IMG/VR virus record: IMGVR_UViG_3300033149_002138 | Location: 1 to 37,300 of that record | Length of the DNA stretch: 37,300 nucleotides | Direction: 5' to 3' (one strand) | Origin: a virus | Part shown: positions 6,315 to 37,300 of the stretch, in pieces | How the letters are laid out: the number at the start of each line of letters is the position of its first letter | Position numbering within the stretch: position 1 is the stretch's first letter | Made by a program: the position numbers and the translations under genes | Notes under the pieces: generated by a model | The model's input: only the letters and a program-made list of their open reading frames with translations | What the model was told of the DNA's origin: nothing | Databases searched by the model: none

Positions 6315-7393
6315 TGGCAGATATAACATTTTTCAGGGGAGAGGAAGTTTTAGTGGAATATGGATTTCAGGGAGTGAGCATAGACAAGACAGAAGTTTCA
6401 ACTGCTGTGACCCCAACAGAAGCACTTAGATATACCCAGAGTTTGGTAGTTAGAGCTAATGAGAATGTAACTAGAAACAAATTCATAGGTGCTGGTGGTG
6501 GAAGAAATTCTACTGTTGATTTGAAAGGAATACATGAATCAAGCGCAACATGGAGTTTCTGGATAGCAAAGGATATGGGTCAGGCAGATGCACAGGAAGG
6601 ATATTTATTGAAGGCGCCGATAGACAGCACAGATACAGATTCAAGTAATCTTTACACAATTCCAGACACGGCAGATGAGTATGGTGATGATGATTTGTTA
6701 GTATTCACTTTAGAGGCAGGATGGAATAAACCAGGCAACCTGATTCCTTTGAGATTAACTGGATGTATAGTGAACACCATGACATTCCATGCAGAAGAGG
6801 GAACTAATTGCTTGTGGACCTATGATATCTTAGCAGTAAAGACAGAATCTATGGACACCACAGGGTTTGGTGGTGGATCAGTATCAGAATCCACCGAGGA
6901 GCCATTTAGATGGGGAGATGTATTGGTTGAATATGGAGATGCGGGAAATGTCGCAACATTAGATGGTATTGAGATGATTGAATTTATAATAAATAATAAT
7001 GTGACACCAGTAAGAGATTTGGCCAATTCAACAGGAACAAGATTTCCAACAATGTATGAGCTTGGGAGTAGAGATATAAATGGAACAATGAGAATCAAGA
7101 TGACTACTGCTACAGAAAACGGACAGGATTTATGGGAAGACTTGTTTGGAGATACATCAGATCCAGCACCAAAAGAAACAATTATACCAAAGGATATTGC
7201 AATAACTCTGTATGTTGATGGAACTTATTATGTAAAATATGTATTGCATGATGTAGTTATTGGAGAATTGGCACCTGAATTTACTGGAAGTGGAATAAGC
7301 AGGATAGTGGTTCCATTTACTGCACAGGCATGTGTATTAACTATGAAGATGAATGCTTCAGCTACAGAGCCTGCAAATTGGGCTGAATCGTAA
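6314..7393 (+). CDS. Major tail tube protein, internally duplicated
   Basis: 359 residues. Two halves begin with the same motif, E-V-L-V-E-Y-G at residues 11-17 and D-V-L-V-E-Y-G at residues 202-208. Each is followed by a beta-rich domain with a strand-loop-strand pattern (N-S-T-V-D-L-K-G...; R-D-I-N-G-T-M-R-I-K-M...). This fits a tail tube protein with two tandem tube domains, as known for some long-tailed viruses such as T5 (pb6), in which trimers make pseudo-hexameric rings. The position directly before the frameshifting chaperone and tape measure gene is standard. Assignment rests on position, length and the duplication. Confidence 0.8.
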   Translation: MADITFFRGEEVLVEYGFQGVSIDKTEVSTAVTPTEALRYTQSLVVRANENVTRNKFIGAGGGRNSTVDLKGIHESSATWSFWIAKDMGQADAQEGYLLKAPIDSTDTDSSNLYTIPDTADEYGDDDLLVFTLEAGWNKPGNLIPLRLTGCIVNTMTFHAEEGTNCLWTYDILAVKTESMDTTGFGGGSVSESTEEPFRWGDVLVEYGDAGNVATLDGIEMIEFIINNNVTPVRDLANSTGTRFPTMYELGSRDINGTMRIKMTTATENGQDLWEDLFGDTSDPAPKETIIPKDIAITLYVDGTYYVKYVLHDVVIGELAPEFTGSGISRIVVPFTAQACVLTMKMNASATEPANWAES

Positions 7394-7424
7394 AAATAAG
7401 GAGAGAATTCCTTAGGAGGATAAA

Positions 7425-7739
7425 ATGAATCCAAGAGATTGGGTTGAAATAGAAGTGGCTGGACTAAGATTTAGAACAAGAAGGGAGAGAACTCTCTTGG
7501 CAGACAGCATTATTGAAAAGGTATTTAGCAAGGGACAGGGACTTGGAGCAAGTGACATAATTAAGGCAGATTGTGAGATATTTGATATGGGATCTAAAGA
7601 ATGGAGGCCCGTATTGGATAGTGATTTAGAGAAGATTGGCAGATATGAGGGAAGAGAAATACTATACAATAAGATTATAGAACTTAGGAAGGCTGAGAAG
7701 GATTTTCGGAAAGTCCAGCAGAAGAAGCAAAAAGGCTAG
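7425..7739 (+). CDS. Tail assembly chaperone, short form (gpG-like)
   Basis: 104 residues with a strong AGGAGG site at 7413-7418. The small, mainly helical protein lies between the tube and tape measure genes and ends in a Gln/Lys-rich stretch (K-V-Q-Q-K-K-Q-K-G). This is where tailed viruses encode the tail assembly chaperone made in two lengths by ribosomal frameshifting. A short A-run (7729-7733) sits just before the TAG at 7737-7739, and the -1 frame stays open beyond it to 7930. Sequence similarity to a named family is not visible; the call rests on synteny and the frameshift arrangement. Confidence 0.75.
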   Translation: MNPRDWVEIEVAGLRFRTRRERTLLADSIIEKVFSKGQGLGASDIIKADCEIFDMGSKEWRPVLDSDLEKIGRYEGREILYNKIIELRKAEKDFRKVQQKKQKG

Positions 7740-7930
7740 AATGGTTTTACAAAGATTATCTAGCTGAGACTTATGGCTGGACTTTGGAATATATTGAATC
7801 ATTACCCAAAAGAACAATTAAGATATTATTGGAGAGGAGAAAATTGAACAATCAAATAAGAGAAGAAAATGCTAAAATAAAAGAGCAAGAGATCATAACT
7901 AAAGCTACATCAAGGAGGATGTTAAAATAA
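7727..7930 (+). CDS. Tail chaperone -1 frameshift extension (gpGT-like)
   Basis: In the -1 frame the sequence is open from 7697 to TAA 7928-7930. It reads E-A-K-R-L-E-W-F-Y-K-D-Y-L-A-E-T-Y-G-W-T-L-E-Y-I..., a sensible helical protein without its own start codon or ribosome-binding site. Slippage on G-CAA-AAA at 7727-7733 would give a fusion of about 168 residues starting at 7425. Only the second (AAA) codon re-pairs perfectly after the slip, so the exact site is uncertain. The tape measure ATG follows one base after the stop. This matches the gpG/gpGT arrangement of siphoviruses. Confidence 0.7.
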   Translation, partial: AKRLEWFYKDYLAETYGWTLEYIESLPKRTIKILLERRKLNNQIREENAKIKEQEIITKATSRRMLK

Positions 7931-7931
7931 A

Positions 7932-9185
7932 ATGGAAGCAGGAAGAGCCACAATTATTATAGATGCTGATACAAAGAAATTAAAAAAAGGAACAGATCAG
8001 GCTAGGAAGGAAGTTAGTAAGTTTAGTGATGTAGTAAAAAAGATGGGTGTAGCATCCATGATTGGTTGGGGAGTAGCAACAGCAGCAGTCACTAGTTATC
8101 TCAAGGATGCAACAGCAGCCTCTATTGCTTTCGAACAAAGATTTGCTTCATTTACTAGATTAATTGAGGGTGACTCTCAACGGTTTTTAAGACAATTACA
8201 AGAAGCATCAGAAGGAACTGTTAGTAGTTTACAATTAGTTACTCAAGCAAATAATGCTATTCTTTTAGGGATTGAACAAAAGCAATTACCAGAATTATTG
8301 AAAGCAGCAAGAGTATTAGGAGCAGCAGTAGGGAGAACTACTGAAGAAGCTTTTGCTGATTTAACCATTGGTATTGGTAGACAATCCCGGTTAATATTGG
8401 ATAATTTAGGTATAATTGTAAAAGCTGGAGATGCTTATGAGGAATATGCAAAAAAGATAGGGAAATCAGTAGATGCATTAAGTGGTCTTGAAAGACAACA
8501 AGCATTTAATATAGCAGTAATGGAAGGACTAGAAGAAAGCACAGGAAAGCTAAAGGGATCTATTACAGATGCAACAACTGCTTCTCAACAATTCAAAGCC
8601 CAGTGGGAAGATTTTAAAATCAAGGCTGGAGATCCTGTTAAAAAAGTTCTAACTACTTGGTTACAAGGATTTAATGAATTGGTTGACATAATGGAAAATT
8701 TGAGAGAAGCAGGAACTCCAGGAGAAAATATGACGCGTTTAGAAGCTTTATTTGGAAGAGAAAATATATTCAGAAGACTAACCCCTGAAGAAGCAGCTGC
8801 AGCAGAAGAAGCAGGAAGAGCAGAAAGAGAGGAAGCTGCAGAAGCTGAAAGAAGAAGATGGGAGATGGTTCGGGAGGGTGCTAATGAGGTCATTAGAATA
8901 GAGGAGGACATTAAGGAAATAATTAGAACTAAGGATTTAACACAAATAGAAAACATGAAAGAATTAGCTGCATTAGAAGGCCTACTAAATACCAGAAGAC
9001 AAGAGGGTATTGATATTATGGGAAAATCGTTTTTAATGGTATTAGAGCAAATAAGAAGCAAGGCTCGGGATGTAGAAGATGATATCAGATTTGGAACAAG
9101 AGGGAGAATGACCTATGCTGAATTCCAAGCCAAAAGGCAGGAGCAGATAGAGGCTGGACTAGTAACTCCAGCATCAACATTTTAA
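7932..9185 (+). CDS. Tape measure protein (short)
   Basis: 417 residues. The N-terminus (I-I-I-D-A-D-T-K-K-L-K-K-G) and following long helix are typical of phage tape measure proteins. A small hydrophobic stretch (about residues 38-55) and the segment R-Q-S-R-L-I-L-D-N-L-G-I-I-V also occur in that family. The C-terminal third is Ala/Glu/Arg-rich coiled coil. Tape measure length sets tail length; at about 1.5 angstrom per residue this predicts a tail of about 60 nm, which is short. It follows the frameshifting chaperone, as usual. No peptidase domain is seen. Confidence 0.85.
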   Translation: MEAGRATIIIDADTKKLKKGTDQARKEVSKFSDVVKKMGVASMIGWGVATAAVTSYLKDATAASIAFEQRFASFTRLIEGDSQRFLRQLQEASEGTVSSLQLVTQANNAILLGIEQKQLPELLKAARVLGAAVGRTTEEAFADLTIGIGRQSRLILDNLGIIVKAGDAYEEYAKKIGKSVDALSGLERQQAFNIAVMEGLEESTGKLKGSITDATTASQQFKAQWEDFKIKAGDPVKKVLTTWLQGFNELVDIMENLREAGTPGENMTRLEALFGRENIFRRLTPEEAAAAEEAGRAEREEAAEAERRRWEMVREGANEVIRIEEDIKEIIRTKDLTQIENMKELAALEGLLNTRRQEGIDIMGKSFLMVLEQIRSKARDVEDDIRFGTRGRMTYAEFQAKRQEQIEAGLVTPASTF

Positions 9186-9545: not shown

Positions 9546-12149
9546 ATGAAAGGTATATGGATATTTATAGGGATTTTAGCATTTTTGATTTTAATTAATG
9601 GTGGATGTATTAAGGGGAAAGAGCCTTTGGTTCCTGAGGAGAAAGAGAAGCAGTTGAGACAATTGGGAGGGGGAGAGCCAGGTAAGAACATAACTATTTA
9701 TTTGGATGGAGAGCCAATAGATAGAAAATATGAATATGAAACTTATTCTAATATAACTGCTATCGTGGATAATTCATCAATAAGTTTATGTATAGATTTA
9801 GATGCTCCTGATTATGGAGATAATTATACTTGTGGTACTCTAGGAGAATCAATAAACATATCTTATCTTGTTGGAGATTTAAGTTCTGATAATTGGACTG
9901 TTGATGAGAGCGAGACTTTAGATTTTACTCTAAGTAAAACTCAACAAATTAATATGACTTCAAAAGAGAATGTGACAATAACACAATTAGAGTTTAATAT
10001 AACTGGCAAAGATAATTCAGGATATCCAATAGATCTATTTTGTGATGTTGCTAATGATGGAAGTATTGATTTCTATCTTGTAGGAAATTTAACTGGAAAT
10101 ATAATACATCAAAGTTATTCAGAAGGATTGCAGACAAATACAATTACTTATCCTACAGCAGGAAGCAGTATAATTTATGTTAATTTATCAAGTTTTGATT
10201 TAACAAATATGGCTATTGAGAATGGTACTATAAACTTAACTGGGGGCACTGCAAATCCAGAATCTTATGATTATACAGAATACTACTGGAATGATTCTTA
10301 TATCTATGATGTAGAATCAACAGTTACAAATCAGTGGCAATATGAGAATTTCAGTTTAGGAGATATAAGTGGAAGATGGAGTGGAAGTTATTCTGTTAGT
10401 ACAGGAAAGTATGTTGGTACTTCATCATCTTGTACTTGTTCTGGAACAGGAAATTGTGATAATTCAAATACAGATAGTAAATCAAGTAATTTCTATTCAC
10501 AAACATTAGATTTTACAGAATATGGTAGTATGTTTATTAAAGTTAATGTTCAAGGAAGTGGTAGTTATGATTCTAATCCTTGTACAGAAACTGCTGGAGG
10601 AAGTGGTTCAGGCTCTCTTAGTATTAGAGATAAAACCTTAGGTTCTAATGTGTTGAGTGTCCATAGTGAATCATGTGGAGATAGTGGAGTGGGTTCTGGT
10701 AGCAGTACTGGATGTAGTGATACATCTATTTGGGAATTTAGAAAGGTTGGAAATAAAATAATGGTTTATGATGATGGAGTTTATGATAGTGAAGTTGCAT
10801 TTGATTCTACTCACCAATATGAGGTTTATCTTTCTACTTCTTGCTCTTGTGAATCTTGGAAATATGATGCTGGAGGAAGTGGGAGTGCATATATTTATAA
10901 TATTAACATGACTGGAATTACTGGAGAGATGACTGGTGACTTTACATGGGGCAATGGTTCAGTAACATCAGAAATGTTAGCAAACTTCTCAAGCAATATA
11001 ACATCAGCAACTCTAACAGCAACAGAATCAGTGCCAGACAATACAGAAACCCATTATTATCTTTCAGCAGATAATGGAACAACTTGGGAATCAGTTCAGA
11101 GCGGAATCAATCATGTATTTGCAGTCGGAGGACAATACTTAAAATACAGAGCCAATGCAACAGGAACAAGTGTTCAGGATAGTGATGGAGATTTAAGTGA
11201 ACAAGCAATAATCAAGGATATTAGAATACAAGTTATTGCCGGAACCCCAGAAAATATAAGTTTGGATATTGGAGCAGACGGAGTTAATGAGTGGGAGATG
11301 AATGGTACTCTTTATTCTAATGAAAGCATTGTTGCTAACTGGATTGGAAGTTCTGTAACTGATTATATGAGTGATAATTGTATAGGGGAATTAACATGCT
11401 TGTTTCCAATAAAATTAACCACAGAGGCTCCCGGAGCAATAGTCTGGAATTTACTGGATCAGAATCAAACAATAGAAAAGATAGTAGTTAGTGAATTAGA
11501 TAATCTTACTATACAAACAACTGAGAATTCAACACTGCCAATTGCTTGTTCAACAACAGCATTACAGGGAGATGTCAATTTTACTAGTTTAGATCTAAGA
11601 TATATTGCTGACGGGAATGTAACAGTATTTGCTTATGATGCAAACGATGTAACTGTTAATGATACAAAAACAATAATGGTAAGATATAGTGATTTTGAAT
11701 TTAATTGGCCACTGCATATTCCGGGATTTTATTTGATACCTACAAATTTGACAGACTATAATGTGACTCCAATCAGGCAGACTATTGAATATTGCGATAA
11801 TGATAACAGAAGCTTGGGCTATTGCGAGAATGAGAGCATACCAATATTTAATGTAACTAATCTAGCCAAGACAGATCCCATTGATATTTATCTTAAATAT
11901 GATATGAGTGCTGGATGCATTAACATTACTGCTGATGATGATATAAATAAAACAGGGGGAATCATGCTGAATAATGAAACATCCCAGAAAATAATAGACA
12001 ATTTGCAGATTAACTCAAACCAAGGGATATGGACATGGGTTGATCTGATTGGATGCAGTATTTCTGATTTTGTTTGGTATAATATTACATTCAAATTTGA
12101 TTCCCTCTGCGATGAATGTGTCGTTACATCAGACGCATTCAGGGATTAA
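9546..12149 (+). CDS. Large secreted glycoprotein inside the tail-tip cassette
   Basis: 867 residues. Residues 1-20 are a strong hydrophobic signal followed by Cys21 (I-N-G-G-C), an imperfect lipobox, then a charged segment. The rest is rich in Asn/Thr/Ser with very many N-x-S/T sequons. Residues about 265-455 form a Gly/Ser/Cys-rich beta domain (C-T-C-S-G-T-G-N-C...S-C-S-C-E-S-W). Residues about 460-560 resemble surface beta-sandwich repeats (T-H-Y-Y-L-S-A-D-N-G-T-T-W). It sits between the distal tail candidate and the tail hub, one to two bases from each. That suggests a tail-tip adhesin, yet its signal peptide predicts export. It could be a tail-tip receptor-binding protein assembled at the membrane or a host-surface protein that shares the operon. 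Confidence 0.7.
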   Translation: MKGIWIFIGILAFLILINGGCIKGKEPLVPEEKEKQLRQLGGGEPGKNITIYLDGEPIDRKYEYETYSNITAIVDNSSISLCIDLDAPDYGDNYTCGTLGESINISYLVGDLSSDNWTVDESETLDFTLSKTQQINMTSKENVTITQLEFNITGKDNSGYPIDLFCDVANDGSIDFYLVGNLTGNIIHQSYSEGLQTNTITYPTAGSSIIYVNLSSFDLTNMAIENGTINLTGGTANPESYDYTEYYWNDSYIYDVESTVTNQWQYENFSLGDISGRWSGSYSVSTGKYVGTSSSCTCSGTGNCDNSNTDSKSSNFYSQTLDFTEYGSMFIKVNVQGSGSYDSNPCTETAGGSGSGSLSIRDKTLGSNVLSVHSESCGDSGVGSGSSTGCSDTSIWEFRKVGNKIMVYDDGVYDSEVAFDSTHQYEVYLSTSCSCESWKYDAGGSGSAYIYNINMTGITGEMTGDFTWGNGSVTSEMLANFSSNITSATLTATESVPDNTETHYYLSADNGTTWESVQSGINHVFAVGGQYLKYRANATGTSVQDSDGDLSEQAIIKDIRIQVIAGTPENISLDIGADGVNEWEMNGTLYSNESIVANWIGSSVTDYMSDNCIGELTCLFPIKLTTEAPGAIVWNLLDQNQTIEKIVVSELDNLTIQTTENSTLPIACSTTALQGDVNFTSLDLRYIADGNVTVFAYDANDVTVNDTKTIMVRYSDFEFNWPLHIPGFYLIPTNLTDYNVTPIRQTIEYCDNDNRSLGYCENESIPIFNVTNLAKTDPIDIYLKYDMSAGCINITADDDINKTGGIMLNNETSQKIIDNLQINSNQGIWTWVDLIGCSISDFVWYNITFKFDSLCDECVVTSDAFRD

Positions 12150-14694: not shown

Positions 14695-14955
14695 ATGGAA
14701 GAGGTTGTTATAACTTTGGGGGCAGGCCTTGGAGCCTCTATGGTAAGAAGTTTTGTGGGATGGCTGGAAAATGCTATGGAAGATTCCAAGATTACAGCAT
14801 ACGAGTTAGGCCAGTTGGGAGCAACTATTGCTAGATTATTAGTATTGACTTTGGGTGCTAAATATGCATTGAATTTAGAGCCACTAGCTGCTGCAGGATC
14901 AGCAATAATAGCAGACTTTATCATAATGGCCATCAAGAAAATTAGAAGGAAATAA
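14695..14955 (+). CDS. Holin-like small membrane protein
   Basis: 86 residues with GGAGG at 14682-14686. Glycine- and alanine-rich hydrophobic stretches occur at about residues 4-22 and 40-80, separated by an acidic loop (W-L-E-N-A-M-E-D-S-K-I). The protein ends in a basic tail (I-K-K-I-R-R-K). Two or three short membrane segments plus a positively charged C-terminus is a holin-like layout. It is the last gene of the late operon, followed at once by a T-rich terminator. Holin function in an archaeal virus is inferred, not shown by homology. Confidence 0.6.
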   Translation: MEEVVITLGAGLGASMVRSFVGWLENAMEDSKITAYELGQLGATIARLLVLTLGAKYALNLEPLAAAGSAIIADFIIMAIKKIRRK

Positions 14956-15016: not shown

Positions 15017-15069
15017 AATTGAAGTAAGGGGCAGTTTATGAAGTAATTGAAGTAAGGGGCAGTTTATGA
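15017..15069. repeat. Tandem 25-base direct repeat, period 28
   Basis: Two perfect copies of a 25-base sequence (15017-15041 and 15045-15069), starting AATTGAAGTAAGGGG and ending GTTTATGA, are separated by AGT. Copy 1 overlaps an inverted pair CTTAC...GTAAG (15011-15028). A 28-base period is a little under three helical turns. Regulator binding sites or minimal iterons are possible. Confidence 0.85.
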
Positions 15070-15168: not shown

Positions 15169-15220
15169 AGAAGTTAAAATATCCCAACAACTCAACCTGT
15201 TGTAGGGATGTTTTACTTCT
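15169..15220 (+). ncRNA. Long hairpin in the early leader
   Basis: The left arm from 15169 (AGAAGTTAAAATATCCC...) pairs with the right arm ending at 15220 (...GGGATGTTTTACTTCT). There are about 19 paired positions, including one T-G wobble, plus one bulged T, one A-A mismatch and a 7-base loop. The wobble suits a + strand RNA. It may be a structured leader, an attenuator or a protein-binding site; the T-run expected of a terminator is absent. Confidence 0.6.
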
Positions 15221-15228
15221 ATATAAAG
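15219..15228 (+). promoter_or_regulatory. TATA box before the first early gene
   Basis: CTATATAAAG directly follows the hairpin. Transcription would begin near 15250 and read the regulator gene at 15346 with a leader of about 95 bases. The overlap with the hairpin's 3' end means that structure and promoter share bases. Confidence 0.5.
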
Positions 15229-15328
15229 GTTTTGGTTATTGAATGATTTTGGTAGATAGCAGTAGATAAAAAAAGAGTTAAAAGAGAGGATTTATCGACG
15301 ATAAAATAAAAAAGATTCAAGATCTAAA

Positions 15329-15337
15329 ATTGTCTGA
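15329..15337. promoter_or_regulatory. Inverted CAGACAA site before the first early gene
   Basis: ATTGTCTGA is the reverse complement of the CAGACAA motif seen twice at 15139-15157. It lies within the last 20 bases before the ATG at 15346, where a bound protein could block transcription or translation of that gene. Confidence 0.4.
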
Positions 15338-15345
15338 TTTAAAGT

Positions 15346-15645
15346 ATGACAATTATTAAAATGGGGGAGAAAAAAGTGAGAATAAGTTTTAGACCAACAA
15401 TCAAGACACTATATGTCTTAAAGCAGCTTGGTTTTTTGGATGGCAAGGGAAGAGTTAAATCCAAATGGGGAATGTTAAGCGACTTTATAAATAGGAGAAT
15501 AACAGCAACCTATGATCACAGCACAGACTTCCAGATTGAGAGCAGAAGATTTTTGATAGTAAAATATCAGGCAGAAATAGAAGAGCTTAAATCAAAGATA
15601 GCAAATCTAGGAAAAGAGATTTGTGAGATAAAAGTGGAGGCTTAA
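15346..15645 (+). CDS. Small DNA-binding protein candidate (ribbon-helix-helix-like)
   Basis: 99 residues from ATG 15346; ATG 15361 (five codons on) is an alternative. The N-terminal strand K-V-R-I-S-F-R-P-T-I is followed by helix I-K-T-L-Y-V-L-K-Q-L-G-F, a turn, then M-L-S-D-F-I-N-R-R-I. This strand-helix-helix order resembles MetJ/Arc (ribbon-helix-helix) repressors. The C-terminal 35 residues are coiled coil, likely for oligomerisation. As first gene after the control region with repeated operator-like sites, it may be the main viral regulator. Confidence 0.6.
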   Translation: MTIIKMGEKKVRISFRPTIKTLYVLKQLGFLDGKGRVKSKWGMLSDFINRRITATYDHSTDFQIESRRFLIVKYQAEIEELKSKIANLGKEICEIKVEA

Positions 15646-15647
15646 AA

Positions 15648-15773
15648 ATGGATGAAGATATAATAAAGGTATTGAAACACATCAGAGCAATAGGTGGATG
15701 GATCCTGGCATTGATGGTCCTGTCTATGTTTGCAGGATGTATTAGTTTTATGGATTCTTTGGCAGGAATCTAA
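15648..15773 (+). CDS. Small membrane protein, 41 residues
   Basis: ATG 15648 follows the previous stop by two bases. The stop is TAA 15771-15773. It has a charged N-terminal helix (M-D-E-D-I-I-K-V-L-K-H-I-R), then one membrane segment (G-W-I-L-A-L-M-V-L-S-M-F-A-G-C-I-S-F). Cys32 in F-A-G-C looks like a lipobox, so a tiny lipoprotein is possible. The tight spacing supports it as a real gene. Confidence 0.5.
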   Translation: MDEDIIKVLKHIRAIGGWILALMVLSMFAGCISFMDSLAGI

Positions 15774-15819
15774 AAGAAAGAGAAAGGTTCCCCCAAACCC
15801 CCTCCAAAGAGAAAGAAAA

Positions 15820-16146
15820 ATGGATAGATACAAAAAACTCGTCAAAAAAGAATTTAAAGAACAAGGAAAGATAACAGAATTAGTCCTCGATGGTATAAGA
15901 TGGAAATTAAAAAAGAATGGAAAATATAGATGTCCTTATTTGAAGAGAAACAAATGCACTGTTTTCGGTAAGCCAGAAAGACCTAATTTGTGTATATTAT
16001 TTGAATGTGCTGATTATATAAAAAATAAAGGATGCAAGGGATGTAAGAATATCTGTTGTGATGATATGAGATTACAATTTCAATATGATGGTGATAAAGT
16101 AAAATATTATATGATAAGAGATACTAATAAGAAGAAAGAAAAATGA
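15820..16146 (+). CDS. Cys-rich metal-binding protein, YkgJ-like in permuted order
   Basis: The start is chosen at ATG 15820; an in-frame ATG at 15730 would overlap the preceding membrane-protein gene. 108 residues. The central motif C-P-Y-L-K-R-N-K-C-T-V-F-G-K-P-E-R-P-N-L-C-I-L-F-E-C resembles the second half of YkgJ-type (UPF0153) metal-cluster proteins. The C-K-G-C-K-N-I-C-C cluster that normally precedes it lies after it here. Nine cysteines suggest zinc or iron-sulphur binding. A C-rich stretch (CCCCCAAACCCCCTCC, 15790-15805) lies just upstream. Function unknown. Confidence 0.65.
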   Translation: MDRYKKLVKKEFKEQGKITELVLDGIRWKLKKNGKYRCPYLKRNKCTVFGKPERPNLCILFECADYIKNKGCKGCKNICCDDMRLQFQYDGDKVKYYMIRDTNKKKEK

Positions 16147-16268
16147 GACGGCGTCGCAAATGTATCCACTGTGGGAAACCAAGCTATGGAACACGATGCA
16201 TGGAATGTTATCTGAAACCGTTAAGAAATAAAAAGAAGTACCGACGACAAAAACCGAAAGGTATATAA
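16143..16268 (+). CDS. Tiny basic zinc-ribbon protein, 41 residues
   Basis: The ATG overlaps the previous stop (ATGA). It starts M-R-R-R-R-K-C-I-H-C-G-K, has a second pair C-M-E-C and ends in a Lys/Arg-rich tail. Two CxxC pairs 12 residues apart make a zinc finger; the charge suggests nucleic-acid binding. The codons are richer in CG (cgg cgt cgc) than its neighbours. Its 3' end overlaps a good TATA promoter. Confidence 0.6.
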   Translation: MRRRRKCIHCGKPSYGTRCMECYLKPLRNKKKYRRQKPKGI

Positions 16269-16269
16269 G
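16254..16269 (+). promoter_or_regulatory. BRE/TATA promoter for the LSm-like gene
   Basis: CCGAAAGG (16254-16261) is followed directly by TATATAAG (16262-16269), a BRE-TATA arrangement. Transcription would start near 16290, upstream of the hairpin at 16336-16380 and the LSm-like gene. Confidence 0.65.
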
Positions 16270-16335
16270 TAAGCTCATCTTTACATTATTGTCCCGACGA
16301 GGATAATTATAATCATAATAAAAAGAAAAGAGAAG

Positions 16336-16380
16336 GAAGCAAGACACCTCCCCAAACCCAGAGTGGAGGTATCTTACTTC
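16336..16380. ncRNA. Long inverted repeat with G-U pairs only on the minus strand
   Basis: The arms 16336-16351 and 16365-16380 match at 14 of 16 positions around a 13-base loop. Both mismatches are C-A on the + strand but G-U on the - strand. An RNA from the minus strand could therefore pair all 16 positions. The right arm contains GGAGGT, so on the + strand the hairpin would also hide a ribosome-binding sequence. It may be an antisense ncRNA or a translation control element. Confidence 0.55.
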
Positions 16381-16395
16381 TTTTTAAACTTATTG

Positions 16396-16611
16396 GTGGT
16401 TAAAATCGAAAACCCAGACCATAGAAATAATGCATATATTAATAACCTAAGAGATTTTGTTGGCAAGGAAATAATTGTGAAGGATTCTCTAGGCAAGTCT
16501 GTCAAGGGAACATGCCTGGCTATCTGGTTTGCTCATCTGAATGTCATTCTGCAGACCAAGACTGAGATCATAATTCTGAAGAATATCTCTAGTATTAGGA
16601 GGAAGATATAA
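16396..16611 (+). CDS. LSm-like (Sm-fold) protein candidate
   Basis: The start is uncertain: GTG 16396 gives 71 residues, and GTG 16363 adds 11 residues encoded in the hairpin arm. The sequence reads N-L-R-D-F-V-G-K-E-I-I-V-K-D-S-L-G-K, then V-K-G-T-C-L-A-I-W-F-A-H-L-N-V-I-L-Q, then I-I-I-L-K-N-I-S-S-I. This follows the Sm1 pattern (V-G-K-x-V...G-x-L-x-x-x-D-x-x-M-N-L-x-L) and a degenerate Sm2 (I-x-R-G-x-x-V-x-x-I). Such proteins form rings that bind U-rich RNA. The T-rich hairpin directly downstream could be a partner. The fold call is from pattern only. Confidence 0.55.
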   Translation: MVKIENPDHRNNAYINNLRDFVGKEIIVKDSLGKSVKGTCLAIWFAHLNVILQTKTEIIILKNISSIRRKI

Positions 16612-16626
16612 TGATCACCTCTTTTT

Positions 16627-16668
16627 CCCTTTCACACGCTGGGCTCAAATCCCAGCGAAAGGGTTTTT
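16627..16668 (+). ncRNA. tRNA-like acceptor/T-arm minihelix or terminator hairpin
   Basis: CCCTTT (16627-16632) pairs with AAAGGG (16658-16663). CGCTGGG (16637-16643) pairs with CCCAGCG (16651-16657) around the 7-base loop CTCAAAT. The loop matches the tRNA T-loop (T-T-C-R-A-N-Y) except at its first base. Together the stems make a 13-bp rod like a tRNA acceptor plus T-arm, with no D or anticodon arm. T5 follows at 16664-16668 and more T-runs to about 16692, so it may simply terminate transcription. A tRNA 3'-end attachment site is another possibility, but no integrase is visible. Confidence 0.6.
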
Positions 16669-16761
16669 CATGCTTCTCTCTTTCTTTTTTTTGTTATAAC
16701 CATTTAGTTGAGAATGGAAAAATTTTTTGCGACTTTTTGGTTTTTTGAGTTTAACAAAAAA

Positions 16762-16778
16762 GCGAAAGCTTTATATAC
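16762..16778 (+). promoter_or_regulatory. BRE/TATA promoter
   Basis: GCGAAAG (16762-16768) followed by CTTTATATAC (16769-16778) is a strong archaeal promoter, similar to the one at 16254-16269. Transcription would start near 16800 and read the small genes from 16837 on. Confidence 0.65.
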
Positions 16779-16836
16779 TTACTATACTTTATGTAATAAG
16801 GCTTTATTAAGCTTAAATAAAAGAGGTGATAACAAA

Positions 16837-16959
16837 ATGCAAATATTGATAACAAACGCAGACCCTGACGAGGTCGAAAGGAACACATCGAAGGTTTTAC
16901 AGAACCTTCCTTTTTCCTTAAATTTTTTTGAGGAGTCAAACATCGAGGTGATAGCATGA
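16837..16959 (+). CDS. Small protein of 40 residues
   Basis: The start is chosen at ATG 16837, about 60 bases after a strong TATA box and behind GAGGTGAT (16823-16830). The upstream in-frame region contains the promoter and is not coding. Sequence M-Q-I-L-I-T-N-A-D-P-D-E-V-E-R; mixed alpha/beta, no family recognised. It overlaps the next gene by ATGA. Confidence 0.55.
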   Translation: MQILITNADPDEVERNTSKVLQNLPFSLNFFEESNIEVIA

Positions 16960-17174
16960 AAGTCAAGAAGAAGCCAAAGGCTACCAAACCATTGGTATCA
17001 GATATTGTTAAAAAATATCTCAAGGATCACAAGGACAGATGGACAGCAATTTCTACTATTGCAGAGGATCTAAATATTTCAGACAGAGAGGCTAGGAACG
17101 CAATAAAAACTTTGAAAAGAAGGAAAGAAAACAATCTGAAATCAATGAAGATAACAGTCTATAGCTATGGATAG
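16956..17174 (+). CDS. Winged-helix DNA-binding protein candidate
   Basis: 72 residues. The N-terminus is basic (M-K-V-K-K-K-P-K-A-T-K). Residues about 12-62 read as a winged helix: I-V-K-K-Y-L-K-D-H, W-T-A-I-S-T-I-A-E-D-L, then the recognition helix S-D-R-E-A-R-N-A-I-K-T-L-K and a final strand. Likely a transcription regulator. It is the second gene of the operon from the promoter at 16762, with GAGGTGATA as its ribosome site (16945-16953). It is followed by two hairpins. Confidence 0.6.
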   Translation: MKVKKKPKATKPLVSDIVKKYLKDHKDRWTAISTIAEDLNISDREARNAIKTLKRRKENNLKSMKITVYSYG

Positions 17175-17187
17175 TCCTGCAAGGGAT

Positions 17188-17214
17188 AAAGCAGTTCTTA
17201 GCAAGGACTGCTTT
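17188..17214 (+). other. Strong hairpin (12-bp stem, 3-base loop)
   Basis: AAAGCAGTTCTT (17188-17199) pairs with AAGGACTGCTTT (17203-17214) around AGC, with one T-G wobble. No T-run follows, so a simple terminator is unlikely. It lies between two small-gene operons and may be a processing or regulator site. Confidence 0.6.
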
Positions 17215-17231
17215 CAATAATAGATTCCATT

Positions 17232-17270
17232 CCAGGAAGGCAAGAGGTTCCCTCCTCAAACCTTTCCTGG
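17232..17270 (+). other. Hairpin before the 17295 gene
   Basis: CCAGGAAGG (17232-17240) pairs with CCTTTCCTGG (17261-17270) with one bulge. The interior GAGG...CCTC (17244-17256) can form an inner stem. It ends about ten bases before the GGAGG of the next gene, so it may affect its translation. Confidence 0.5.
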
Positions 17271-17294
17271 GATATAATTATGGAGGTTTAACAG

Positions 17295-17642: not shown

Positions 17643-18022
17643 CAGAAGCCTCAGATTATTTAAAAGAAGAGATAGTAAAGATACCCACGGAGATAAGAGA
17701 TTGTGAAGTTGAATTGATGAGACTAAATAACGAGATAAAAAAGATAGAGGACAATATGGAGGAGATAAAATCCAGGACCATGATCAAGATTGCAGAAGAA
17801 ACTTATAATGGAGACAAGAAAGTATTCACTAATGAGACAGCAAGGCAGGCAGAATTGAAGCAGAGACTGAAGATTAATGAGTTGTATCAGACCCAGGAAA
17901 AGAAGTTGAAGCTTCTTAAGAAGGATCTGTCAGAGGAGAGCATCAAGCTAAATCTGTTAAAGAACAAGAAATGGTCGCTTGGGAACCTTGTAAAGATATT
18001 ATTATGGGAGCATGAGGAATGA
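17639..18022 (+). CDS. Coiled-coil protein, possible recombination/replication accessory
   Basis: 127 residues, almost all helical with heptad-like Leu/Ile spacing (residues about 18-50 and 72-118). The segment Y-N-G-D-K-K-V-F-T-N-E-T-A-R-Q-A-E-L-K resembles small coiled-coil proteins that phages carry beside single-strand annealing or ssDNA-binding genes. Next to a cold-shock protein, a nucleic-acid role is plausible. The resemblance is a pattern match only. Confidence 0.5.
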   Translation: MTEASDYLKEEIVKIPTEIRDCEVELMRLNNEIKKIEDNMEEIKSRTMIKIAEETYNGDKKVFTNETARQAELKQRLKINELYQTQEKKLKLLKKDLSEESIKLNLLKNKKWSLGNLVKILLWEHEE

Positions 18023-18216
18023 AAGGAAAAGTAAAGTGGTATTCTGAAACAAAGGGATACGGATTTATTATAGGGGAAGACAATCAGGAGTATTTTATGC
18101 ACATCACTGAGATATATTCTGCAAAGCCCTTGAAGAAAGGAGAGGAAGTAGAGTTTCAGGAGTCAAGATCAAAAAAAGGATTACAAGCTGTAAAGGTTAA
18201 AAAATCAGGAGAGTAA
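18019..18216 (+). CDS. Cold-shock domain protein (CspA-like)
   Basis: 65 residues, the canonical length. Starts M-K-G-K-V-K-W-Y-S-E-T, with RNP1 K-G-Y-G-F-I at residues 12-17 and RNP2 Y-F-M-H-I at 25-29, then the G-E-E-V-E-F and A-V-K-V strands. OB-fold proteins of this family bind single-stranded RNA or DNA. The start overlaps the preceding gene (ATGA). CspA-like proteins are patchy in archaea, so its presence is notable. It may melt RNA structure or serve as a single-strand binding protein during replication. Confidence 0.92.
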   Translation: MKGKVKWYSETKGYGFIIGEDNQEYFMHITEIYSAKPLKKGEEVEFQESRSKKGLQAVKVKKSGE

Positions 18217-21764: not shown

Positions 21765-21980
21765 ATGAGAAAAAGCGTGACTTTAAAGACTTTAAACAAA
21801 CTGAAGGATTTCTTAAGGAAAATAGACAAGCCAATAAACAAATGCGATATCACTTACAAGTTAAAAATAGATTACAATTCCTTAAAGATAGCAATAAATC
21901 ACCTTCCCAACTATCTGAAGAAAAAAATCAAGGAGAATAATAATGCAAAAAGAATTAAAAATAGAGCAAATAGATATTAA
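21765..21980 (+). CDS. Small winged-helix-like protein
   Basis: 71 residues, very basic C-terminus (K-R-I-K-N-R-A-N-R-Y). Residues about 8-55 read as helix-turn-helix: L-K-D-F-L-R-K-I-D, I-N-K-C-D-I-T-Y-K-L, N-S-L-K-I-A-I-N-H-L. First gene after a strong leaderless promoter, overlapping the methyltransferase gene by 38 bases. Possibly a regulator of the packaging operon; role inferred. Confidence 0.5.
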   Translation: MRKSVTLKTLNKLKDFLRKIDKPINKCDITYKLKIDYNSLKIAINHLPNYLKKKIKENNNAKRIKNRANRY

Positions 21981-27159: not shown

Positions 27160-27288
27160 ATGGCATTTAGATGTGAATGTATAAAATGTGGTTATAGGAT
27201 GACCACAGATGAGCACTGCATAGATGTTAAGTGTCCTAAATGTGGTGGTGAAATGCGCAGGTGGAATCGTCCTGGTCCGGGAAGATGA
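27160..27288 (+). CDS. Rubredoxin-like zinc-ribbon protein, 42 residues
   Basis: ATG 27160 is behind GGAGG (27146-27150) and one base after the portal-MuF stop; TGA at 27286-27288. Two metal pairs, C-I-K-C-G and C-P-K-C-G-G, and a closing R-P-G-P-G-R. Small proteins with this C-P-K-C-G-G-x-M-R-R...R-P-G-P-G pattern are familiar next to phage portal/MuF genes. Exact role unknown. Confidence 0.75.
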   Translation: MAFRCECIKCGYRMTTDEHCIDVKCPKCGGEMRRWNRPGPGR

Positions 27289-27872
27289 ATATTAAAAGAG
27301 ATTTAAAAGGTAGATTTGTTAAAGGAGTAAAAATCCCTAAAGAATGGTATAAACATCCAAAAGGATTTACTAATTCTGGAAGTTTTACTTCTGAAAGAAT
27401 GAAAGGAAAAAACAATCTTTTTTATGGAAGAAGACATACAAAAGAATCAAAAAAGAAAATAAGTAAAAACAGTGCTATGAAAAATAATCCAGAAGTTAGA
27501 GAAAAAGTAAGTAAAGCATTGAAAGGAAGTAAACATACTGAAGAATCAAAAAAGAAACAAAGAAAAGCAATGAAAAGAAGAGTTAGATTAGGAATACATA
27601 ATTTTTGGAAAGGAGGAATTTCAAAGTATTATCAACAATTAAATCATAGTTTAAGAAATTCTGAATGGAAACACTGGAGAGAAGCAGTATTCAAAAGAGA
27701 TAATTATACTTGTCAGAAATGTGGATTAAGAAGTGGTAATGGAAAAGCAGTTTATTTAGAACCACACCATATAGTTTCTGTAAAGGATTGTGTTGATATG
27801 AATTTTATGGAATTAATATACGATATTGAAAATGGATTAACACTTTGTAAAGAGTGTCATAAATTATCATAA
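27285..27872 (+). CDS. HNH homing endonuclease with NUMOD3-like repeats
   Basis: Start chosen at ATG 27285 (ATGA overlap); 195 residues. Two NUMOD3-like DNA-binding motifs lie at about residues 40-70 and 80-100 (L-F-Y-G-R-R-H-T-K-E-S-K-K-K-I; G-S-K-H-T-E-E-S-K-K-K). The HNH domain follows (F-K-R-D-N-Y-T-C-Q-K-C-G...L-E-P-H-H-I-V-S...G-L-T-L-C-K-E-C-H). It is free-standing between the zinc-ribbon and protease genes, markedly more A-rich than both, and followed by an A/T-rich gap. It is probably a mobile, selfish gene that cleaves intron-less or virus-free relatives. Confidence 0.9.
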   Translation: MNIKRDLKGRFVKGVKIPKEWYKHPKGFTNSGSFTSERMKGKNNLFYGRRHTKESKKKISKNSAMKNNPEVREKVSKALKGSKHTEESKKKQRKAMKRRVRLGIHNFWKGGISKYYQQLNHSLRNSEWKHWREAVFKRDNYTCQKCGLRSGNGKAVYLEPHHIVSVKDCVDMNFMELIYDIENGLTLCKECHKLS

Positions 27873-32021: not shown

Positions 32022-33770
32022 ATGAGAAAATTCAATTATATAATATTTGGAGTTCTATTAATGGTCCTTGCAGGATATGTTTACGGAGCAGGAGAAGCGG
32101 ATGATGTTCCTGTTGTGACAATAGTATCACCAGAAGCATTGTCAACAATAGAGGAGAGAGAGGGATATTTCACGCCTTCAGCATCAGCTGTTATTCCTAG
32201 CGGGGATTTGGACTCAGAGATAGTGAATTTTACATTATTTGAGAATATAACAGACAATATTAATTATACCAGATTTGTTAATGATAGTGATGAATTCTTT
32301 AATGATTTATTGGTTCCATGGGGAGAAAATCAGACATCCGATAGAACAGGAGTCGGCAACACATCAGAATTTGCCAGCGCACTCAATCTTCCAGATGATT
32401 ATTATATTAATTGGTATGTGATGGTTTGTAATGAGAATAATAATTGTAGTAATTCAAGTATGAATTCAGCAGTAATGAATAGAGATTATGATACCACTGC
32501 CGGATCTGTAGGAATAACTTATCCAGCCGATAATGCCTTGGTAAAGGATTCTCCGGCATATATTAATTTCACAGCGACAAATGGGGTTTATGTTCAGAAT
32601 GTAACACTATTCTTTAATTACTCCAGCCAGGATTTAGAAGGAGCAGATTTCAATTATACAGATTTGGAAAGCAATATAACATATATTGAGAACGAAACTC
32701 TAACCAATACAGGAGATGTTGCTCCATTTGAGGAGAATACAGGAAACATAACTTTGGTAGGAAACTTCACAGACTGGGGAACTAGTGCAGAGGATGGATT
32801 TTATATTGGATATGTTATGACTTGTGATTATGTTGGTAATTGTGTTAATTCAAGCAAGATATCTTTTGAGTTAGATACAACAGAGCCATATATTTCAGAT
32901 GCAATAGTAAATGCTTCTGTATCTAATACATGTGATACTGTTGGATTAACATTTAATGCAAGCGAGCCAGTAAGCATAACTGTTAATTGGGGATTAGTCA
33001 CAGATGCTTTGAATGAAACAGCAAGCATAAGCGGTTATGCAAATGATACTAATGAAATTAATATGACTGGTTTATTATCAAACACAGTATATTATTACAA
33101 TTTAACAATTTGCGATGAGGCCAATAATTGCAATTACACGGCAACAGGGACAGGAACAACCTCAGAATCTTTCTTGAAAGAGCATAGTGCTTGTGATGGA
33201 TGGAATGCTTACGGCATATTGAATACAAGTGTTAAACTTCAAGATATAAGATATGGATTGAATGATGACAATGCATTGACAATATCATGGTTTAATAGAA
33301 CAAGCCAAACATTTTTGAATTATGTAACAAGCCTGCATACAAATGAAAATCATACAATTCCAAGAGGGGACGCAGTTTTAACTAATGTTAATGGGTCTAC
33401 ATTTGTTAAATTCAGCACATTCATGGAAACTAGCAATACAACAATAAATGATATTTATGTATATACACTGAACAATACAAACGGAAACTGGACAAACATA
33501 GGAGTATTGCAGGATTGGCAGATGGGGAATATTACCCAAGCTACAGAACTTTTGGGGAATATAACTTATTTATCCTACTTTGATAATTCACAGCACAGGT
33601 ATGTGGATCATATATATACCTGGCAGTGGAACAATGAGACCTTATTAGAGGCAGGAGACAGCTTGTGGATGTGGGGAGACCAGAATCTAGGAAAGTGGTG
33701 GAGAAACGAGACTTATAATGCAACATTCTATGATGCGCCAGCAACAGAGTATTTAGACCTATATGTATAA
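32022..33770 (+). CDS. Secreted multi-Ig glycoprotein
   Basis: 582 residues behind GGAGG. Signal peptide at residues 1-23 (basic start, V-L-L-M-V-L-A-G-Y-V-Y-G-A). Beta-sandwich repeats follow: V-T-I-V-S-P-E near residue 35, I-T-Y-P-A-D-N-A-L-V near 165 and a fibronectin-like part (A-S-E-P-V-S-I-T-V-N-W-G...N-T-V-Y-Y-Y-N-L-T-I-C) near 310-370. More than twenty N-x-S/T sequons can be counted. Such chains occur in archaeal cell-surface proteins. It lies between two Ig-domain genes of the capsid module. It ends eight bases into the in-frame upstream extension of the next gene. Surface adhesion is inferred. Confidence 0.75.
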   Translation: MRKFNYIIFGVLLMVLAGYVYGAGEADDVPVVTIVSPEALSTIEEREGYFTPSASAVIPSGDLDSEIVNFTLFENITDNINYTRFVNDSDEFFNDLLVPWGENQTSDRTGVGNTSEFASALNLPDDYYINWYVMVCNENNNCSNSSMNSAVMNRDYDTTAGSVGITYPADNALVKDSPAYINFTATNGVYVQNVTLFFNYSSQDLEGADFNYTDLESNITYIENETLTNTGDVAPFEENTGNITLVGNFTDWGTSAEDGFYIGYVMTCDYVGNCVNSSKISFELDTTEPYISDAIVNASVSNTCDTVGLTFNASEPVSITVNWGLVTDALNETASISGYANDTNEINMTGLLSNTVYYYNLTICDEANNCNYTATGTGTTSESFLKEHSACDGWNAYGILNTSVKLQDIRYGLNDDNALTISWFNRTSQTFLNYVTSLHTNENHTIPRGDAVLTNVNGSTFVKFSTFMETSNTTINDIYVYTLNNTNGNWTNIGVLQDWQMGNITQATELLGNITYLSYFDNSQHRYVDHIYTWQWNNETLLEAGDSLWMWGDQNLGKWWRNETYNATFYDAPATEYLDLYV

Positions 33771-36343: not shown

Positions 36344-37300
36344 ATGAAATTAGGAAATGGAATCTTAATCTTATTATTTATGTTAGCATTAGTTAGTTCA
36401 GCACTTGCTATAAGTTGGACTCCAATAGGAGATATAGACATGAGGGGATATTATGCTATGTATGGAGCAACAAATGTTACAACTGTTATGATGTGTATTG
36501 GAAGTGATTGTAGAACTGCATGGCCAGGACCTGCCGAAGGAGGAAGAATAGGGGATGGACCTTATTTGTATAATGATACTGATACTATTTACTTTAATGA
36601 AACATTCTTGAATCAAACTATAAGGGCATTAGATACTAACGCTAGTACGCAATGTTCTGGTGATGAAGTACCTTTGGGTAATGGAAGCTGTGCACCCGAG
36701 ACTAGATATATTCAATCAGCAATAGAAGTGGATCCTCACTTTGGAACCATGATTTTAGATTATCCTAATTGGACTGATAGCAATAATACTTTCTTAGCAA
36801 TAGCAGATTATTCTGCACAAATAATTGATTACTTAAATATTTCTGATTATGAAGCCCAAATTGTAGATTATCTTAATATCACTTCTTTTTGGACACATAT
36901 TGATAATATAATTGTGGATTATTATAATAAAACCGAAGCTGACGCAACTTTTGCCGGGATTGAATGGGATTATAACCAGACAGAAGGAGCAGCTGTTTAT
37001 ACTGATGAACAAATAGCAACAAAAGATGAATGTTCTGAGATTGCTGGTTGTGTAGAGAATGCTATTACTTCTTATGTAGATACATCAGCACCAGTTAATT
37101 GCTCTTCTGGGGAGGTATTATTAGCTAACTGGACTTGTGTAGACCCAGCTACTTATGATACTGACACTGATACAACTTGTGATGGAGATACTTGTAATAT
37201 AGCTAATACAGGAACATTAGATGGTTATGAGGCATCTGATTTATTAGATGATACTGATACTAATGCCACAACAGAATGTGGTGATGGAGAGTATTTAGAT
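36344..37300 (+). CDS. Secreted adhesin / fibre-like glycoprotein, 5' part (continues at base 1)
   Basis: ATG 36344 is behind GAGGTG (36333-36338). Signal peptide at residues 1-22 (G-I-L-I-L-L-F-M-L-A-L-V-S-S-A-L-A). Then W-T-P-I-G-D-I-D-M-R-G-Y-Y-A-M-Y-G-A-T-N, a phrase I associate with DPANN and viral fibre-like surface proteins, followed by Cys/Asn/Asp-rich repeats. Two Q-I-(I/V)-D-Y-L-N-I copies lie near 36823-36880. The frame is open at the right edge and resumes in phase at base 1. On the closed molecule the protein has 768 residues before the frameshift at about 1442. Receptor binding is inferred. Confidence 0.85.
   Translation, partial: MKLGNGILILLFMLALVSSALAISWTPIGDIDMRGYYAMYGATNVTTVMMCIGSDCRTAWPGPAEGGRIGDGPYLYNDTDTIYFNETFLNQTIRALDTNASTQCSGDEVPLGNGSCAPETRYIQSAIEVDPHFGTMILDYPNWTDSNNTFLAIADYSAQIIDYLNISDYEAQIVDYLNITSFWTHIDNIIVDYYNKTEADATFAGIEWDYNQTEGAAVYTDEQIATKDECSEIAGCVENAITSYVDTSAPVNCSSGEVLLANWTCVDPATYDTDTDTTCDGDTCNIANTGTLDGYEASDLLDDTDTNATTECGDGEYLD
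37187..37300. repeat. Terminal direct repeat, right copy
   Basis: Exact copy of bases 1-114. Removing one copy gives a 37,186-bp circle that keeps the adhesin reading frame. Confidence 0.9.

Follow-up and report, generated by a model that had tools for sequence, protein, structure and literature searches.

A divergent LSm-like protein and a putative U-tract terminator in a tailed virus of likely archaeal host

Here we describe a viral locus in which a 71-residue open reading frame (16396-16611, + strand) very probably encodes a divergent LSm protein of archaeal type, judging from its sequence and predicted fold, and in which the best reading of the hairpin and T-run block behind it (16627-16746) is that the LSm transcript ends there, at a U-tract terminator. 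Taken as a whole, an LSm protein of an archaeal virus with a hairpin/U-tract terminator closing its transcript is the explanation that we consider probable. The window analysed is the entire IMG/VR record IMGVR_UViG_3300033149_002138 (37,300 nt). Because both ends of the record share a direct terminal repeat of 114 bases (1-114 and 37187-37300), the virus genome is best read as complete and circular, at 37,186 bases. Pfam and PHROGs scans recover the gene set of a tailed virus, namely terminase, portal with head-morphogenesis domain, capsid protein and tape measure. The larger assigned genes are all encoded on the + strand, and the LSm locus has the structural genes on one side and a group of small genes on the other. 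Elsewhere in the genome, a cold-shock-domain protein (18019-18216; Pfam CSD, E 1e-17) is a possible second viral RNA chaperone, and a homing-type endonuclease of the NUMOD3/HNH kind (27261-27872) is found just downstream of the portal gene.

The LSm-like reading frame

The frame opens with GTG, lacks a clear Shine-Dalgarno sequence ahead of its start and closes with TAA (16609-16611); its Sm1 half falls within residues 18-58. Its assignment to the LSm proteins rests on the agreement of several methods, though each E-value is weak. Curated family models (Pfam, PHROG, NCBIfam) return no convincing match, with the Pfam LSM model below its cut-off, and the two best PDB sequence matches are both Sm proteins, though their E-values (0.44 and 0.64) are weak. 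A profile built from the LSm genes of Nanoarchaeota-type (DPANN) genomes, with the window sequence left out, ranks the frame first among 2279 viral ORFs (E 0.012), a score that shuffled versions of the protein equal in 2 of 20,000 cases. Searches by tblastn into DPANN genomes likewise lead to their LSm genes, mostly via residues 18-58, and the pairwise alignment with the best-matching archaeal LSm lies 10.5 sd above shuffles. At the level of single residues, His47 and Asn49, which form the H-x-N motif of Sm1, are invariant across the nine DPANN LSms aligned, and the viral protein further shares with archaeal LSm/SmAP proteins (PF01423) an N-terminal helix and the Sm1 stretch (GKEIIV, KGT, H-L-N-V-I-L).

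Structure prediction for the single chain, where the earlier note had proposed one of the protein as a hexamer or heptamer, gave an Sm-like result. The single-sequence AF2 model, of moderate confidence (pLDDT 73.6), has a short helix followed by four called sheet strands, in the expected helix-then-strands order; no fifth strand could be resolved, and confidence is low at the C-terminus. When the model was searched with Foldseek, the first 23 matches were all Sm, LSm or Gemin Sm folds, led by the SmAPs of Halobacterium and Methanococcus and with 6tfl, 5mkn and 1i8f as matching SmAP structures, none of the matches reaching E 0.001. Model and matches point to the Sm fold, which is defined by an N-terminal helix and a five-strand bent sheet.

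What sets the viral protein apart from archaeal LSm/SmAP proteins, besides being virus-encoded and below Pfam detection, is its second half: the RGD of Sm2 is replaced by IILKNISSI, with LKN at the RGD position, and the loop-4 insert is missing in the alignment to DPANN LSms. The LSm-like designation hence holds for the Sm1 half, the predicted Sm fold and the likeness to the DPANN profile, and has to be qualified for the degenerate Sm2 half. A short loop 4 is also found in Hfq, the bacterial Sm protein (PF17209), with which the viral LSm has its fold class in common. Membership in the Hfq family was considered and rejected, as the viral protein aligns with the core of E. coli Hfq no better than shuffles do (z 0.6). 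In archaeal LSms, Sm1 residues mainly contact RNA and Sm2 residues mainly other subunits (PMC10221803); with Sm1 kept and both Sm2 and loop 4 lost, RNA contact by the viral protein may persist, whereas its assembly into a ring is uncertain.

A cellular archaeal LSm is the most likely source of the viral one. No relative of the frame was found in IMG/VR or among phages, nor in the viral relatives recovered through terminase, capsid and tape-measure queries, and scans with the structural and neighbouring genes did not lead to this locus in any other virus. The closest relative, L014 (capsid 70%, portal 59%), is represented by a 10-kb fragment, which ends short of the LSm region. A further related viral contig, L025 (IMGVR_UViG_3300033127_000022, 36 kb), carries 23 tRNA genes within 2.6 kb (6338-8911).

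Hairpin and T-runs behind the LSm gene

The anatomy that the earlier note had described behind the frame, a 15-base gap, a 13-bp rod with a CTCAAAT loop and a T-rich tail, was confirmed in its coordinates, as were those of the frame itself. The rod (16627-16663, + strand) consists of 7 and 6 bp separated by a 4-nt bulge: CCCTTTC (16627-16633), the bulge ACAC (16634-16637) and GCTGGG (16638-16643) lead up to the 7-nt loop (16644-16650), and CCCAGC (16651-16656) and GAAAGGG (16657-16663) lead down from it into TTTTT (16664-16668). Its folding energy is -18.7 kcal/mol, against a shuffle mean of -8.4 (z -4.3; 0 of 200 shuffles as stable), and it ranks fourth in strength among the 50-nt folds of the + strand. 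As shuffled genomes contain about 1.4 folds of this strength each, the rod taken alone is unremarkable and its strength only mildly surprising; what chance does not predict is its placement directly behind a gene and the block of T-runs that surrounds it.

These T-runs are dense. Nine of the genome's 41 runs of at least five Ts fall within 16381-16929, a span of 1.5% of the genome, and six lie in 16622-16746, in a block that stops just short of an archaeal TATA box. Five tracts on the + strand (16664-16668, 16685-16692, 16723-16728, 16734-16738 and 16741-16746) make up a putative archaeal-type poly-T terminator, beyond which a BRE/TATA-like element, GCGAAAGCTTTATATA (16762-16777, + strand; element at 16770), would serve the next transcription unit. 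The archaeal termination signal consists of U-tracts, of which two or more work best and for which a hairpin is not strictly needed (PMC8716108). Behind the LSm stop codon, two or more tracts of at least four Us are present as that rule describes. Since the rod sits inside a six-T-run block that ends before a TATA box, a U-tract terminator is the best reading of the region, with the rod as its hairpin, and among the options raised by the earlier note "only a terminator" fits best. With the aCPSF1-dependent terminators of archaea the block has in common several U4+ tracts after the stop and ahead of the next promoter, and it differs from them in the strong hairpin that precedes the tracts. An automatic terminator scan did not list the rod, probably owing to the bulge.

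Similar tracts occur at other gene ends. The tract behind the rod, TCTCTTTCTTTTTTT, recurs right behind the stop of ORF 14695-14955, there with no hairpin, and a T8 run is located at the end of the major capsid gene; L014 has a T-rich tract and a small hairpin at the same place behind the capsid gene. When T-runs behind gene ends were counted in the relatives, no clean signal emerged.

Under the explanation that we favour, a tailed virus of archaea, probably with a DPANN-type host, would encode a divergent LSm descended from a cellular one, and the hairpin and U-tract block would end its transcript and separate it from the next, TATA-driven unit. The viral LSm may in turn act as an RNA chaperone that binds the U-rich 3' ends of viral or host RNAs, perhaps that of its own transcript among them. 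The earlier note's argument that an Sm-type protein binds exactly such a rod with a T-rich tail does not help to choose between readings, since the same holds for every hairpin with a U-run behind it.

Alternative readings of the hairpins

The rod is one of six strong, mostly intergenic hairpins found in 15169-17274 around the LSm gene (z -3.8 to -7.6). Upstream, a strong intergenic hairpin with the loop UCAACCU (15169-15220, + strand; z -7.6 against shuffles) is followed, just ahead of the LSm start, by a second strong hairpin running into TTTTT at 16381-16385 (16333-16385, + strand), which could be the terminator of the upstream unit or an element of the LSm 5' UTR. Downstream lie the hairpin GAAGGTTTTACAGAACCTTC (16890-16929, + strand), with CTTTTT and T7 behind it, and two adjacent intergenic hairpins at 17182-17216 and 17225-17274 (+ strand). 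A perfect tandem repeat of the 25-base unit AATTGAAGTAAGGGGCAGTTTATGA (15017-15041 and 15045-15069) belongs to the same intergenic zone, where it lies in a stretch of 390 bases, and could represent origin iterons or an operator. The zone from 15.2 to 17.3 kb has the look of the virus's main control region.

Perhaps, then, the LSm protein and the hairpins of this zone work together as a regulatory ribonucleoprotein, with the ring binding small RNAs or mRNA elements. That the six hairpins crowd into 2.1 kb around the gene speaks for such a system, and so does the excess of folds at or below -18 kcal/mol in the genome (7 against 2.1 expected), five of which belong to this cluster, 6% of the genome. 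The motif CTCAA(A/C)(C/T) is common to the loops of three hairpins (15191, 16644 and 17255) and has seven copies on the + strand, three of them in hairpins, a pattern that was chosen after seeing the loops and serves as a lead only. Several of the cluster hairpins, however, end in T-runs as terminators do, and the hairpins do not align as a single family; antisense matches of the hairpins within the genome are limited to scattered 11-14-mers. Because no relative carries the locus, there is no covariation to draw on and the system is unproven. We judge it unlikely, and we give a similarly low probability to the wider proposal of an archaeal virus with its own Sm-type RNA chaperone and six structured RNAs as a hub of ribonucleoprotein regulation. 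A coding role for the rod is less likely still. A 45-aa frame (16611-16748), Phe-rich, has an ATG at 16611 that overlaps the LSm stop (TAATG) and spans the hairpin; the overlap, together with AGGAGG about 8 bases ahead of the ATG, a good Shine-Dalgarno spacing, would suit translation of the peptide, but AGGAGG doubles as the Arg-Arg codons of the LSm tail, and the peptide, about 17% Phe, crosses the T-tracts. The frame is probably non-coding.

The resemblance to a tRNA, on which the earlier note had built its "tRNA-like minihelix", proved loose. Rod and acceptor/T-arm minihelix share a 7-nt loop with the identities T55, C56 and A58, and the rod departs from the minihelix in its 4-nt bulge between the acceptor and T sides, a T-stem of 6 bp in place of 5, a C at position T54 and a U-run where CCA would stand. 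ARAGORN does not match the rod to a tRNA, and no tRNA covariance model of Rfam matches it at gathering score or even at E<=10. Other Rfam near-matches of the rod (GAIT, SECIS_5 and others) were set aside as far below their gathering scores. A remnant of an attachment site, with the rod as a host tRNA 3' end taken up in a past integration, could account for the three loop identities and the G53-C61 closing pair, and chance seldom produces T-loop-like hairpins of this kind (3 in the window against 0.3 in shuffles). Against it, an attachment site would not include the 5' strand of the rod, the ORFs scanned with Pfam and PHROGs include no integrase, and the 3' strand could not be traced to a cellular tRNA as the earlier note had suggested it might: its 22-mer is absent from about 85,000 species genomes, a set from which the true host may be missing, and the exact strand is likewise absent from viral contigs. 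Allowing up to three mismatches, 371 DPANN genomes yield three matches, none of them a tRNA, in agreement with the roughly two that we estimate would arise by chance. An attachment-site origin is already largely refuted and, in our assessment, very improbable. Even harder to credit is a decoy for tRNA-processing or tRNA-modifying enzymes, for which the superficial acceptor/T-arm likeness could be cited; the bulge inside the stack, the 6-bp T-stem, C54 and the missing CCA leave the proposal unsupported, and neighbouring hairpins that are not tRNA-like carry a similar loop motif. A hairpin with a U-tract terminator is the most likely identity of the element.

Host and significance

The host is likely, though not proven, to be archaeal, perhaps of the DPANN group. 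TATA boxes precede the start codons at 21765 and 27936 by 29 and 32 bases, a spacing that fits archaeal transcripts with short leaders or none. N-glycosylation sequons exceed expectation in exported proteins (39 against 14, 36 against 13 and 16 against 7 expected), and terminase, portal and capsid show no such enrichment; sequon-rich predicted exported virion proteins are encoded at 9546-12149, 32022-33770 and 265-1464. The nearest cellular terminase is that of a Nanoarchaeota MAG, but CPR and Bacteroidota have members of the same family, and the archaeal assignment stays tentative as a result.

All domains of life have cells in which Sm-family proteins organise the regulation of RNA. In the open-access literature that we searched, with a limited library and set of terms, we met no report of an archaeal virus that encodes an LSm protein. 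If it works, the viral LSm would exemplify an Sm protein that lacks a normal Sm2 half, and would be a small tool with which a virus redirects the RNA handling of its archaeal host.
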